This document shows, piece after piece, positions 1,316-22,678 of a DNA stretch of 39,414 bases. A model generated the notes under the pieces. It did no database searches. It was not told where the DNA came from and worked only from the letters and a program-made list of their open reading frames with translations. Source of the stretch: Paracoccus sp. (in: a-proteobacteria) (GTDB lineage Bacteria; Pseudomonadota; Alphaproteobacteria; Rhodobacterales; Rhodobacteraceae); the NCBI GenBank assembly GCA_030538425.1, contig JAUNTZ010000023.1, positions 1-39,414 on the forward strand. The letters are read 5' to 3'. The first letter of the stretch is position 1; each line of letters opens with the position of its first letter. The position numbers were made by a program, and so were the translations under genes.

Positions 1316-1344
1316 TTGCAATGTTCGTTTTGCGAACATATATT
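1316..1344 (+). promoter_or_regulatory. Promoter with palindromic operator in the spacer
   Basis: TTGCAA at 1316-1321 and TATATT at 1339-1344 are separated by 17 nt and precede the gene at 1395. Positions 1321-1339 form a palindrome, ATGTTCG-N5-CGAACAT, which overlaps the spacer almost exactly, as expected for a repressor site. It also reads GTTC-N7-GAAC, an inverted relative of the alphaproteobacterial LexA box (a direct repeat GTTC-N7-GTTC). The binder is unknown; the helix-turn-helix protein at 2175 and LexA are both candidates. Confidence 0.6.
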
Positions 1345-1394
1345 GTGTTTATAGGCAGACGGCAAAGGGCCGCGCCTCTCATCGGAGATCAAAA

Positions 1395-1745
1395 ATGCTG
1401 AACATCGACCTGAAAGCCTTCAAGGCACTCTGCGAATCCAGCCGGGCGCATTACGCACAATCTGGTATGGACGCCGAGATGATCGCACTCCTGCATTGCG
1501 ACGGCATCCAGATGCAGCGGAGCAAGTGGGGCCGCAAGGCTGAAGCCGAAGCCCCGGCAAGCGAAGGTGAAATCGCAGCCGACCTTCGTCAGGCCGCCAT
1601 GCGCTGCGTCGACCGGGCCTCTGAAAAGCAGATCAAATATCTTGCGGCTCTGATCGTTCGCGCCGGGAAAAGCAACCAGCGTTGGGATGGTGAACCGCTG
1701 TCCAAAGCCCGCGCCTCTCGCTACATCGAAGAACTGAAAGGCTGA
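1395..1745 (+). CDS. Small protein with a C-terminal DUF3072-like helical motif
   Basis: 116 aa. The ATG at 1395 is preceded by GGAG at 1384-1387. The first half (DLKAFKALCESS, then a charged region) is not recognised. Residues from about 78 to the end (SEKQIKYLAALIV ... LSKARASRYIEELK) resemble the DUF3072-type pattern of two helices ending in KA.AS..I..L; that is from memory. It is the first gene behind the palindromic promoter and lies 4 nt before the next gene, so they form an operon. Candidate accessory (moron or anti-defence) protein; no function can be read directly. Confidence 0.7.
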   Translation: MLNIDLKAFKALCESSRAHYAQSGMDAEMIALLHCDGIQMQRSKWGRKAEAEAPASEGEIAADLRQAAMRCVDRASEKQIKYLAALIVRAGKSNQRWDGEPLSKARASRYIEELKG

Positions 1746-1749
1746 ACAG

Positions 1750-2016
1750 ATGCAAGACGACTTGACCCGCGCTGATCTGGCCCGCCGCCCGCACATTGTG
1801 AAATACACAGGCGGCAAGACCCCCGGATACATTGGCTTCAAGACCGCTAAGAACGCCGAGGCGTTCAAGGCCCGCGCCACCGAATACGGGCCGGTTGAAA
1901 CCGCCAGCCCTGACGACTTGCCAAATGGATATTGGCGACCGCTGGAAATGTGGGAGCAGCGCGGGATTAATGGGGTGATCTCGCTCACGGGCGGCGAACT
2001 ATGGGTCCACCACTAA
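1750..2016 (+). CDS. Small hypothetical accessory protein
   Basis: 88 aa, starting 4 nt after the stop of the preceding gene and clearly in the same operon. The sequence is rich in aromatic and Gly residues (TGGKTPGYIGF, NGYWRPLEMW, GGELWVHH), suggesting a compact beta fold. I see no signal peptide or membrane segment and do not recognise the family. A strong hairpin follows the stop by 6 nt. Position and size fit an anti-CRISPR or other anti-defence candidate, but only by context. Confidence 0.65.
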   Translation: MQDDLTRADLARRPHIVKYTGGKTPGYIGFKTAKNAEAFKARATEYGPVETASPDDLPNGYWRPLEMWEQRGINGVISLTGGELWVHH

Positions 2017-2020
2017 ACAA

Positions 2021-2095
2021 AGCCCCGGCAGCCGTAGCTGCCGGGGTAATGTGGTGCGCCGGGGCGCTTGCCAACCGCACCCGAAGATACGGCGG
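2021..2095 (+). repeat. 75-bp structured element, copy A
   Basis: These 75 bp recur without change at 2571-2645, 550 bp away, each time directly behind a gene stop. The element starts with a perfect 10-bp hairpin (CCCCGGCAGC, loop CGTA, GCTGCCGGGG at 2023-2046). A second possible hairpin follows (GGTGCG pairing with CGCACC). Similarity decays after 2095 but patches continue. It could be a shared 3' UTR or terminator module, or a small RNA. Confidence 0.85.
2023..2046 (+). terminator. Perfect 10-bp hairpin after the 1395-2016 operon
   Basis: The stem CCCCGGCAGC/GCTGCCGGGG with a CGTA tetraloop begins 6 nt after the stop at 2016. No U-run follows, so it may act as a transcript-end stabiliser or a weak terminator rather than a classical intrinsic terminator. 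The second copy at 2573-2596 lies between converging transcripts. Confidence 0.55.
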
Positions 2096-2174
2096 ATCAA
2101 TGATACTGCCGGGCTGTGCTTTGCACATTATCGCCACCAAGCCGGGTCCGTCAACACAAAGGGCTTAAAACACG

Positions 2175-2567
2175 ATGACTAACAACGCTTTCGCCGCCTG
2201 CCTGATCCGCACCCTTGGCCTCACGGCCAGCGATCTGACCGAAATCGGCGGCTGGTCCGGCCCCCGGACGGCACAGTACATCATGGCCGGGACACGGCAA
2301 TGTCCGCCCGACGTGCTGGAGGCTCTCGAAGATTTGCAGGATGACCTTGAGTCCATCACCGATGAACTGGTCGCAAGGATTGAAGCGGGTGAGGCCGTGA
2401 TTTGGGTTTACCGTGATCTCGACCGCCTGCGCGATGACTGGCCCCATTGGCCGGGCCGGGGCAAGGCAGCAGGTGGATTCCTTGGTCCATTTCAGATCGC
2501 GGCTCACACAGCCGCCGCGATGATGGAGGAGAAAGGCATTGAGGTCGATCTGCTGTTCCCGGCATGA
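2175..2567 (+). CDS. DUF1870/Aca2-like helix-turn-helix regulator
   Basis: 130 aa. The N-terminal region (residues about 10-50, LGLTASDLTEIGGWS.RTAQYIMAG then CPPDVLEALEDL) has the XRE-type helix-turn-helix pattern of the DUF1870/YdiL family. The remainder keeps the layout I recall for anti-CRISPR-associated Aca2: a long helix, a YRDLDRLRDDWP-like segment, then a helix with IAAHTAAAMMEEKG. It has its own short leader (2096-2174) behind element copy A and is followed by copy B. As the only DNA-binding protein in this small cluster it is the natural candidate to bind the palindrome at 1321-1339. Aca2 assignment is an inference from memory, without alignment. Confidence 0.72.
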   Translation: MTNNAFAACLIRTLGLTASDLTEIGGWSGPRTAQYIMAGTRQCPPDVLEALEDLQDDLESITDELVARIEAGEAVIWVYRDLDRLRDDWPHWPGRGKAAGGFLGPFQIAAHTAAAMMEEKGIEVDLLFPA

Positions 2568-3099: not shown

Positions 3100-3732
3100 T
3101 TAGTTGAGGATGAAAAACGCAGCCGCAGCCGCCAGCGCGAGGCCAAGGATGACGCCTGCGGTCAGGTCTGCGCGTTCGGCAGGTGCCGGGAGCGGCGGAA
3201 TCGTCACGGGCTTGGGATCGGGCCTGCGCGGCGGGGCCGTCGCAGCGGTGATCCGCGACCGCAGCTTGTCGCCCACCTGCACGGGCGGCGCGGGCGCTGC
3301 CATGCCGGGCAGCCATGTTACGTCCCATTTTCCCGCCTGCGCCACGCCCAACGTGATCGGCACTTCAGCATGGGTCAGCACAGTCTGCCGCGTGATCGGG
3401 ATCTTGTATTCCCGCGCCAGACGCGCCACTTCGGCCACCATCGCGTCAAGCTGCACCGGGGTAATCGGCGCGGCCCCCGGCGAAAAGGGCCGCTCACGCG
3501 CCCCGTGCATAGCGCAGAAGGCTATCCCGATGCTGTCAGTATTCAGCCGGGCGGTGTGTGCGGCATAGGTCGCGCTGTTATTGGGCTGGCGGATGGGCGC
3601 GGCATTGGTGCTGATCGGGTGCAGCCCGTCGATGACCGTGCCGTCGCCCTGCACAAGCCGGTGATAGGCCCGCAGATCGGCAGGTCCGGCGCGGTATCCG
3701 CCACCAGACCAATGTATAATAATGCGCTTCAT
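3100..3732 (-). CDS. N-acetylmuramoyl-L-alanine amidase (endolysin) with C-terminal membrane anchor
   Basis: 210 aa from the ATG at 3732, which has GGAGG upstream. The N-terminal 140 residues form an Amidase_2/PGRP domain that cuts the bond between muramic acid and L-Ala in peptidoglycan. Likely zinc ligands are H7 (RIIIHWS), H121 (VLTHAEV) and D137 (KWDVTW). A Pro-rich linker follows (about 145-185), then a hydrophobic C-terminal helix (VILGLALAAAAAFFIL). The membrane helix at the C-terminus is less usual than an N-terminal SAR signal and may tether the enzyme. The next gene encodes a holin-like protein, consistent with a lysis cassette. Confidence 0.88.
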   Translation of the reverse strand: MKRIIIHWSGGGYRAGPADLRAYHRLVQGDGTVIDGLHPISTNAAPIRQPNNSATYAAHTARLNTDSIGIAFCAMHGARERPFSPGAAPITPVQLDAMVAEVARLAREYKIPITRQTVLTHAEVPITLGVAQAGKWDVTWLPGMAAPAPPVQVGDKLRSRITAATAPPRRPDPKPVTIPPLPAPAERADLTAGVILGLALAAAAAFFILN

Positions 3733-3740
3733 GTCGCCTC

Positions 3741-3771
3741 CAAATGCAAAAGCCCCGCGCGATGGCGGGGC
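3741..3771 (-). terminator. Intrinsic terminator upstream of the lysis genes
   Basis: On the minus strand GCCCCGC-CATCGC-GCGGGGC (3771-3752) is followed by TTTTGCATTTG. The 7-bp GC stem plus T-run fits a rho-independent terminator. It sits between the membrane coiled-coil gene and the amidase, so amidase and holin expression may depend on read-through or antitermination. Confidence 0.6.
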
Positions 3772-3797
3772 GGAAGGTGTCAAGGATTGCTTGACGA

Positions 3798-20978: not shown

Positions 20979-22678
20979 AGCACCAATACGCCGCGCGATT
21001 CATACACCGACGCGCCACGCGCGACCGGATTGCCGAACATCAGCATGGCAGCGTTAAACGTCGCCATCAGCAGGTCGATTTTTGCGCTGCCCGCGACCTG
21101 CTTGGTGACCACGTAGTTGCTCCCTTTCAATTCAGTTTTTGCATTCCCGACATTCCAGCCCATCAGACCGGACCCGCCATGGATCAGCTTTCGATCTTTC
21201 AACCGGCGCGGCAGCGTGATGACTGCCTGTTGCAGCTTCCACCCCTGCCCCACCGAAACAAACCGGCTATCGTCAAAGCCGCGCTCTTCCAACTCATCCA
21301 GCAGTTCGGCCACCCCGTAGGCGTCCAACCCGATTGCAGGGCTGGCGCGCGGTAACAGATCCGCCCCCTCCAACCGCTCGATCACGTCGCAGGCCGCGGC
21401 CAGATCCTCGCCAACCTCGGAACAAATCGTCAGCTCGCCCGCCTGCGCGAAATCATGGAGCCGTGGCGCGATATTCTTGCGCTGCGCCAGAACATCGGGA
21501 AATGCCCAAGCATGGCCCCAATGCAGCCAATCGCGCGTCTCGCGTTCCCGCCCAAGCACGGCCAAGGCGAACAGATCGTCCAAGCCCCCGCCGTCGATGC
21601 CGACCACACAAACCTCGGACCGCGCGATCAGCGCCTCAAGCGTCAGCGTCTTGTCTGCGCATCCATCCCAATAGGGCGCGCCCGGCCATGCGCTTGCCCG
21701 CATCGCCATGCCGATCTCGACGTTAAAATGCTGGCTGGCCAGCAGCATAAGTGCATCCGGCCCCGCCGCCTCTGCCGCGATCAGCTCGTCGGCTAGAAAA
21801 TCCGGCGATACTGATTGGCCCAGCCCCGGATTGACCAACGGCCAGTATTTTGGATTCTTCCAGCCACCCTCGGCGGCGACGGTCAGCGGCAGTTCATACA
21901 GGACCGCCAGCAGCGGCAGGATGATGTCGCCATCCCGAACAGACCGCGCCTTCTCCAGTTCCGCCTTGAACACCCCCGCTGGCGGCTCTTTTGACTGGGT
22001 CGTGATCGTCAGCAAAAATCCGTCCGGGCGCGAGGCCAAACCGCCCTTGATCTCGCGCATCACCGCAGCCGCGCGCGACATCGCGGCGAATTCGTGCAAC
22101 TCGTCGATCAGGATATAGGCCGCCTTTGATCCCGTCACGACCTTCGGATCGGCAGCCTTGATCGCCAGCACCGCGCCCGTGTTGCGATGCGTGATCGTTT
22201 TCAGATGTGCTTGCGCGTGCATCACTTTAGACAGTTCGGGATCGAGCGCGATTATCCCCACGGCCTGATCGTAGCTGATTCCGGCAACGCTGATCGTGGG
22301 CGCGATCAGCAGCATTTCGCAAAGCGGGCGTTCGTTGAGGATCAACGCCGTGACCATGATCGCCGCAGCGATAGAGGACTTCCCGTTCTTTTTCGGCACC
22401 AGCAGAAAAAATTCGCGGATCATCCGCCGCTTGGTTTCGGGGTCGTAGCTTCCGAAGACTGCCCGGACAAAATCAAACACCCAATGGCCGCAGACTTCAC
22501 CATAGGTCGGCGTGCCGATGATGTCCGGCACCCGCAGCCGCTTGAAGATCCGCAGGGCCTTTTCGGCTACGGCATCAAACAACGGCAATTGCGGAACCAG
22601 CGATTGCCGCGCCATGATCCGATCTTCCCAGTCCGGCAGGGCCGTCGCCCAGCCCTCCGCCCGGATCGGCGCCGTCAT
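20975..22678 (-). CDS. Terminase large subunit
   Basis: 567 aa. The packaging ATPase motifs are present: Walker A at residues 94-102 (VPKKNGKSS) and Walker B at 188-193 (YILIDE). The nuclease part carries acidic residues in VVGIDGGGLDD, AIGLDAYGV and SAKIDLLMA. It cuts concatemers and pumps DNA through the portal. It starts in a TGATG overlap with the small subunit. Confidence 0.95.
   Translation of the reverse strand: MTAPIRAEGWATALPDWEDRIMARQSLVPQLPLFDAVAEKALRIFKRLRVPDIIGTPTYGEVCGHWVFDFVRAVFGSYDPETKRRMIREFFLLVPKKNGKSSIAAAIMVTALILNERPLCEMLLIAPTISVAGISYDQAVGIIALDPELSKVMHAQAHLKTITHRNTGAVLAIKAADPKVVTGSKAAYILIDELHEFAAMSRAAAVMREIKGGLASRPDGFLLTITTQSKEPPAGVFKAELEKARSVRDGDIILPLLAVLYELPLTVAAEGGWKNPKYWPLVNPGLGQSVSPDFLADELIAAEAAGPDALMLLASQHFNVEIGMAMRASAWPGAPYWDGCADKTLTLEALIARSEVCVVGIDGGGLDDLFALAVLGRERETRDWLHWGHAWAFPDVLAQRKNIAPRLHDFAQAGELTICSEVGEDLAAACDVIERLEGADLLPRASPAIGLDAYGVAELLDELEERGFDDSRFVSVGQGWKLQQAVITLPRRLKDRKLIHGGSGLMGWNVGNAKTELKGSNYVVTKQVAGSAKIDLLMATFNAAMLMFGNPVARGASVYESRGVLVL

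Follow-up and report, generated by a model that had tools for sequence, protein, structure and literature searches.

A probable acr-aca-type locus in a Paracoccus prophage with a candidate RNA anti-Cas9 that resembles a single-guide RNA

The window, that is, the whole 39,414-nt stretch of Paracoccus sp. DNA analysed here (contig JAUNTZ010000023.1), probably contains near its left end an acr-aca-type counter-defence locus whose key product would be an RNA anti-Cas9, acting either as a decoy or as a retargeting guide; the probability of this reading is put at about 0.6. The locus lies between an SRAP gene (293-1288) on its left and an endolysin gene (3103-3783, with a PHROG match) on its right. 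As originally predicted, it has three open reading frames on the plus strand, which encode proteins of 116 aa (P0001, 1395-1745), 88 aa (P0002, 1750-2016) and 130 aa (P0003, 2175-2567). The original prediction of an acr-aca-like locus holds for its Aca2-like helix-turn-helix (HTH) protein, its promoter operator and its variable small cargo behind one conserved leader, but it missed the strongest anti-CRISPR candidate, an RNA on the minus strand.

The window is contig C56 of genome bin G000 (2.69 Mb in 92 contigs, 86.6% complete). It is identified as a prophage by its encoded proteins, since eight of the nine scanned match PHROG phage families (integrase, terminase, tape measure, primase, endolysin, major head, portal and repressor). 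A tRNA-Pro is located at its right end, and a sub-cutoff tRNA match at 87-145 is read as the att repeat. The SRAP (SOS-associated peptidase) gene sits close to the left att site, and a relative of this gene is found at the genome end of Paracoccus phage MK291445, with a DNA identity of 71.5% over 626 bases.

Putative RNA genes on the minus strand and their Cas9-linked relatives

The locus includes a 106-nt direct repeat (2020-2125 and 2570-2675, 92% identical). One copy is what had been described as a hairpin with the HTH gene's own leader after it; on the opposite strand it reads as an RNA gene. The two minus-strand genes (about 2120-2014 and 2670-2564) would each yield an RNA of about 105 nt, predicted to be a naturally fused single-guide RNA (sgRNA) for type II Cas9, with a guide-like 5' stretch, a shortened duplex of repeat and anti-repeat capped with a C(UNCG)G tetraloop, a nexus hairpin and a terminator. 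In copy 1, a promoter-like site (2127-2154, TTGACG-16-GATAAT) is followed by the guide-like stretch (2097-2124), whose 5' end is placed from the -10 site only, and by the sgRNA-like scaffold (2016-2098), which consists of a UUCG-loop repeat/anti-repeat-like hairpin, a nexus-like hairpin and a terminator hairpin (2046-2023). Copy 2 has its TTGACG -35 site at 2703-2698, its guide-like stretch at 2647-2674 and its scaffold at 2566-2648, with the terminator hairpin at 2596-2573. A counterpart is present as one copy in Rhodovulum phage vB_RhkS_P1 (P1), between Rhks_59 and Rhks_58.

Both the structure and the strand of this RNA are conserved. On the minus strand the 83-nt cores fold alike (z -3.4 to -4.0), each into three hairpins: a long one whose loop is C(UUCG)G or C(UGCG)G, one of 4 pairs, and the terminator, whose loop is C(UACG)G. 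Several stem pairs of the repeat are G-U on this strand and mismatches if read on the plus strand. In the three copies 98.7% of the cells are paired, while slid controls reach 36-52%. Ten of 25 pairs have changed on both sides, which none of 500 shuffles matched; as two of the three copies, which come from two phages, are close, this covariation amounts in effect to one comparison. All three copies have a -35-like TTGA(C/A) 56-58 nt before the first paired base; a good -10 site is found in copy 1 only (GATAAT), those of copy 2 and P1 being poor.

An initial reading of the repeat on the plus strand was abandoned. Pattern scans for its plus-strand core found it in no viral contig and in 19 genome contigs, about the estimated chance number. 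Rfam had nothing at gathering threshold for the RNA region. Two sub-threshold Rfam matches were set aside as chance-level: isrL (12.3 bits), which overlaps the terminator of the RNA, and Atu_C9 (16.9 bits), on the opposite strand of the G081 copy. A blastn search of phages with the scaffold gave no relevant match.

A search with a model built from the phage RNA copies only (R2) leads to type II CRISPR loci. At E≤0.01 it has matches in nine of 115 genomes of the family, at 12 places, two of them those of the window. Nine of the ten places outside the window adjoin a Cas9 gene (C27, G080, G081, G007, G035, G053, G106 and two in G054), including a 41-bit match at C27:3900-3964 in the window's own genome bin; the tenth and weakest, in G109 (30.0 bits), shows none of the Cas9 motifs within its 3 kb and is regarded as unproved. 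Five other genomes, four with HTH relatives plus G094 with a weak HTH match, have no R2 match. The Cas9 genes were recognised by an open frame and motifs, and Pfam was run on two of them: the C27 protein passes the cut-offs for HNH_4 and RuvC_III, and for G007 the N-terminal piece has a Cas9_a match below the cut-off. CRISPR arrays are present in all five cas9 loci fetched at length, and the G007 RNA contains GTTCAAAATTCGCGGTC, the exact complement of part of the G007 CRISPR repeat. The cas9 neighbours, the arrays and this repeat-complementary stretch identify the R2 places adjoining cas9 as type II tracrRNAs. StsR, a Rhodobacter sRNA, was an early candidate for the RNA and was dropped because cas9 adjoins the relatives of the RNA.

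Some of these loci have features of their own. G054 has two tracrRNA-like copies 344 bases apart and one cas9 (L082 1157-1228 and 1501-1567, minus strand). The cas9 beside the G053 tracrRNA (L080) looks broken, since its two Cas9 motifs are in different frames. The cas9/tracrRNA locus of G081 adjoins a gene that by eye resembles that of a conjugation coupling protein (L077 1732-3075, minus strand), a hint that this locus lies in a mobile element.

By its homology the phage RNA is a tracrRNA relative whose anti-repeat is predicted to be closed on a repeat-like arm via a UNCG tetraloop. The repeat-like arm of P1, GUUGCGGC, matches exactly the opening 8 nt of the CRISPR repeats in G080, G081, G007 and G035, and GUUAACAAGC of P1 is also present in the tracrRNAs of the same four genomes. 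The arm of the window RNA is diverged, and it resembles the G000 repeat (beginning GTTGTCGC) less than the P1 arms resemble other repeats. A guide-like stretch of about 20-25 nt precedes the repeat-like arm, at the position of a spacer. The features of tracrRNAs and sgRNAs that can be recognised are thus the anti-repeat-like arm and the nexus and terminator hairpins homologous to those of Cas9-linked tracrRNAs, and the predicted layout is the plan of an engineered sgRNA. Engineered sgRNAs are capped by a tetraloop in much the same way. The RNA is not encoded beside cas9: P1 has none of the Cas9 motifs tried, the window has no array, no Cas9 was found among the 13 window proteins scanned, and the cas9 of G000 sits on another contig of the bin (C27).

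When viral contigs were scanned for the tracrRNA core, three came up, of which L090 and L092 have plain tracrRNAs adjoining cas9 and L091 looks like chance, so that no third phage copy was found there. L090 and L092 (IMG/VR) are filed as viral yet carry cas9 and an ordinary tracrRNA, and are perhaps misfiled host DNA or cas9-bearing elements. The annotation of P1 is Mu-like (mobile element proteins and Mu-like head genes), while the window prophage has an integrase and is tRNA-adjacent; the presence of a common module in both suggests exchange between phages of different integration style. The HTH and RNA genes are not obligate partners, since the RNA is absent from G374, G456 and G426, each with an intact HTH gene.

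The Aca2-like protein, its promoter and the leader

P0003 is probably, on profile evidence, a distant relative of Aca2. The sequence alone has no match above the curated cut-offs of Pfam or NCBIfam and none in PADLOC; its match to PHROG 955 (HTH DNA binding protein) has an E of 0.0023, and in a single-sequence search of PDB sequences Aca2 is second in the list (E 0.82). With a three-member profile of the family Aca2 comes first (E 0.0028), and with a five-member profile four Aca2 sequences lead (E 0.0012, 0.0012, 0.0014 and 0.016), followed by Aca1. The description of the protein as Aca2-like is supported by this profile ranking, but its assignment to the DUF1870 type is not matched in Pfam, where DUF1870 gave no match for P0003 at E≤1 nor for three family members at E≤10.

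The predicted secondary structure of P0003 (helices 4-14, 18-25, 30-38 and 45-70, strand 75-78, helices 80-87 and 95-119, strand 124-127) tracks the published elements of Aca2 one by one (2-13, 16-24, 28-38, 43-70, 74-78, 81-89, 93-110 and 114-116, forming α1-α4, β1, α5, α6 and β2; PMC8434428, as far as available), with the reservation that the single-sequence AlphaFold model is weak (pLDDT 58). Foldseek with this model (pLDDT 58) gave Aca2 first and then SO3848, itself described as an Aca2-like protein in the available parts of PMC8434428, with a best E of 0.074 and none below 0.001. Arg31 of P0003, invariant in all five members, is aligned by profile to Arg30 of ZF40 Aca2, the DNA-binding arginine of the recognition helix. 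P0003 shares with the Aca2 of Pectobacterium phage ZF40 (PMC8434428, in part) the recognition-helix arginine and an inverted repeat in the promoter, and resembles it in the order and rough length of the predicted secondary-structure elements, whereas its sequence match is at profile level only (E 0.0012), without a Pfam DUF1870 match, and its C-terminal GKAxGGFxGPF-like motif is different.

Relatives of P0003 are few. Among 50,697 phage records the relative found is Rhks_57 of P1 (51%, E 2e-23), in two records of this one phage; none was found in plasmids, and the pattern method yielded no confirmed one among viral contigs. A two-row profile found four of 394 genomes (G000, G374, G336 with a broken copy, and G094 with a weak match, E 9e-4), and a three-row profile three of 292 (G000, G456 and G426). 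The broken gene of G336 is in two pieces (L029 1296-1508 and 1573-1710, minus strand). A 70-aa protein with CPC and CSSC motifs (L026 2374-2586, plus strand), which we take to be reminiscent of phage Mu Com, is encoded divergently from the G374 operon and has no Pfam match. In G426 and G456 (L036 2002-3006, plus strand; L035 374-1393, minus strand) two palindromes and the leader stand before the Aca2-like gene, here the first gene, and an HNH endonuclease gene is next (Pfam was run on the G426 protein only), an arrangement that is possibly a self-regulated nuclease or homing module. The presence of HNH genes behind the HTH gene indicates that regulators of this family do not go with acr genes alone.

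The promoter and the palindrome of its spacer are as originally described: TTGCAA-17-TATATT (1316-1344, plus strand), with the palindrome ATGTTCGTTTTGCGAACAT (1321-1339) filling the spacer as a putative operator. Of 40,000 random 17-mers taken from the window, 277 contain an inverted repeat with arms of at least 6, so that chance would not be expected to place a palindrome in the spacer; that it recurs in relatives adds to this case. All four readable promoters (window, G374, G456 and G426) have an inverted repeat within the core promoter; in the three relatives TTGACA is followed by a 17-nt spacer with GTTCCG-N4-CGGAAC, and G456 and G426 have a second palindrome copy. The P1 record starts inside the promoter, at GGAACTATAGT, and its palindrome layout is not readable. 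An inverted repeat inside the core promoter is a feature of acr-aca loci (PMC9410906, in its available parts). The Aca2-like protein would bind the palindrome between the -35 and -10 sites and repress its own operon.

The promoter is followed by a conserved 5' leader RNA (1350-1397, plus strand), which reaches the start codon and consists of a hairpin (GGC-AGA-CGGC-loop-GCCG-C-GCC) and a small CTC/GAG hairpin round the Shine-Dalgarno site. This leader of about 45 nt is alike in all five HTH-linked loci, while the first gene behind it varies, being P0001, Rhks_59, a 79-aa ORF or the HTH gene itself. The leaders of the window and P1 are identical at 25 of 28 positions (best of 1000 shuffles, 18). 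The five HTH-linked leaders score 50-68 bits with a leader model (R1), and the maximum elsewhere in 295 genomes, apart from the window's own copy, is 26.4 bits; the exact leader pattern is found in one of 394 genomes, the window's own, and in no viral contig. A wider distribution, seemingly indicated by R1 matches in 131 of the 295 genomes at E≤0.05, was rejected: these E-values are too kind, and the inspected matches resemble coding DNA or ordinary ribosome sites (the L039, L040 and L045 matches were left out and minus-strand ones reversed). P1 also has a second, degenerate leader before Rhks_58 (L004 679-743, plus strand, 25.8 bits), which overlaps the promoter region of the minus-strand RNA.

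The two common hairpins fold in all five leaders, the second round the Shine-Dalgarno site. Only the G374 leader is clearly more stable than its shuffles (z -3.2, the other four 0.0 to -1.4), and one of ten pairs has changed on both sides, equalled by 107 of 500 shuffles; the leader pairs rest on conservation and like folding in all five, not on covariation. The leader hairpin ahead of the Shine-Dalgarno site would be a possible second control point. Aca2 reportedly binds RNA as well as DNA, which makes translational control via the leader a fair guess.

In the collections searched neither P0001 nor P0002 has a relative, which speaks neither for nor against an anti-CRISPR role, and to call them further anti-defence proteins is a guess. 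The C-terminal third of P0001 has a DUF3072 match below the cut-off. The locus could also be an ordinary accessory operon in which the Aca2-like protein regulates unrelated cargo and P0001 and P0002 have nothing to do with defence. This explanation, compatible with the RNA reading, is a real possibility if a somewhat doubtful one: it agrees with the HNH genes of G426 and G456 and with a survey, in its available parts, in which upstream acr genes were found for only 35 of 1223 Aca2-like proteins (PMC9410906), but it leaves aside that in the window and in P1 the HTH gene stands with a gene for a Cas9-guide-like RNA.

Spacer match, guides and possible modes of action

The genome bin of the window includes a cas9-tracrRNA-array locus on C27, and its type II array has 14 repeats and 13 spacers. 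One of the 13 spacers agrees with a protospacer-like site (21035-21063, minus strand) within the window's gene for the terminase large subunit in 24 of 29 positions, differing at 2, 8, 14, 17 and 29, and none of 300 shuffles was as good; the other 12 have 17-20 matching positions, within the range of shuffles. Given this match, the bacterium or a relative has probably been immunised against a relative of the window phage. Since G000 is only a genome bin of 92 contigs, the window and C27 may not share one cell.

Upon infection or induction, the phage RNAs would be made from their own promoters and load apo-Cas9, blocking uptake of crRNA:tracrRNA. By occupying Cas9 in place of crRNA:tracrRNA, they would leave it loaded with a useless or foreign guide, as a decoy, or steer it to a target chosen by the phage. 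P0003 would shut the plus-strand operon once enough product has been made.

That the RNA is a true single guide, which leads host Cas9 to a chosen DNA site and does not jam it, is a less probable alternative. The most tempting target would be the intergenic region between cas9 and the tracrRNA gene, where binding would repress cas9 in the manner of tracr-L of S. pyogenes; a rival phage would be another. The guide stretches of copies 1 and 2 each agree with C27:4059-4075, between the divergent tracrRNA and cas9 genes, at 13 of 17 positions, all differences being transitions, and this is the sole other place in the 2.69-Mb bin to match the shared 17-mer at 0-1 mismatch. A natural single guide, tracr-L, is known to repress Pcas (PMC11417352, in its available parts). 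However, the 17-mer pattern was written from these same three sites, so that the zero mismatches at C27:4059-4075 arise by construction, and the reversed pattern also has three matches at ≤1 mismatch. In an ungapped scan the copy 2 guide matches the C27 site at 14 of 20 positions, which several unrelated places equal, and the scaffold-side (seed) part of the guide has mismatches. The guides of the window RNAs have no clear target: against 13 sequences the last 20 nt of the guides, with the first scaffold base included in the P1 stretch, match at most at 15 of 20 positions apart from each guide itself, and the copy 1 guide has no convincing match in 50,697 phage records (best E 0.8). The bolder proposal, that phages invented the single-guide RNA, a tetraloop-joined molecule with its own guide that under an Aca2-like regulator would turn host Cas9 into a repressor of the cas9 promoter or a weapon against rival phages, is speculative in like measure.

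A captured tracrRNA relic that now serves as an antisense RNA, its terminator reducing read-through into the HTH gene, would fit an RNA that is antisense between cargo and HTH gene, again behind the HTH gene, and that ends in a strong terminator-like hairpin. This is improbable, however, as both phages preserve the nexus, the loop letters and the duplex despite sequence change, more than an antisense terminator needs.

Comparison with known RNAs

The proposed anti-Cas9 RNA has partial parallels. RNA anti-CRISPRs (Racrs; Camara-Wilpert et al. 2023, PMC10651486) are phage small RNAs that imitate CRISPR repeats. Racrs, as presented in the available parts of that paper (PMC10651486), mimic a CRISPR RNA part, as the window RNA is proposed to do, and are often found amid other anti-CRISPR genes. 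They trap Cas proteins (PMC10651486, in part), whereas trapping of Cas9 by the window RNA is a proposal. Racrs are described there as solitary CRISPR repeat units, while the window RNA would imitate the tracrRNA scaffold with a built-in duplex, and the main text, in the sections available, makes no mention of tracrRNA (PMC10651486). The window and P1 RNAs are not such solitary units: all they have is a short arm resembling the repeat, which is clear in P1 (GUUGCGGC) but has diverged in the window.

The tracr-L of the S. pyogenes type II-A system, reportedly described originally by Workman in 2021, is similar in plan. It also joins guide, duplex and tracrRNA scaffold in one RNA (PMC11417352, in its available parts). 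In the same source tracr-L loads Cas9, which for the phage RNA is a conjecture, and comes from the host's own tracrRNA locus to regulate cas genes, whereas the phage RNA is phage-borne and duplicated in the window (PMC11417352). The UNCG tetraloop cap is a feature of the phage RNA in contrast to tracr-L. A phage-encoded inactive Cas9 acting with a phage tracrRNA, as reported in the available parts of PMC11656645, likewise sets a phage tracrRNA against host immunity, but it needs a phage Cas9, and the Cas9 motifs tried are absent from P1, as is Cas9 from the 13 window proteins. A search of the open-access literature found no phage sgRNA mimic in print.

The locus brings an Aca2-like regulator and an RNA anti-CRISPR candidate together in two different phages, and the RNA provides a ready search model for tracrRNA-like RNAs in phages without cas9. 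If the present reading is true, phage RNAs that imitate the tracrRNA or sgRNA scaffold would add to the RNA inhibitors a class directed specifically at Cas9 systems, and nature would also have joined crRNA and tracrRNA through a tetraloop.
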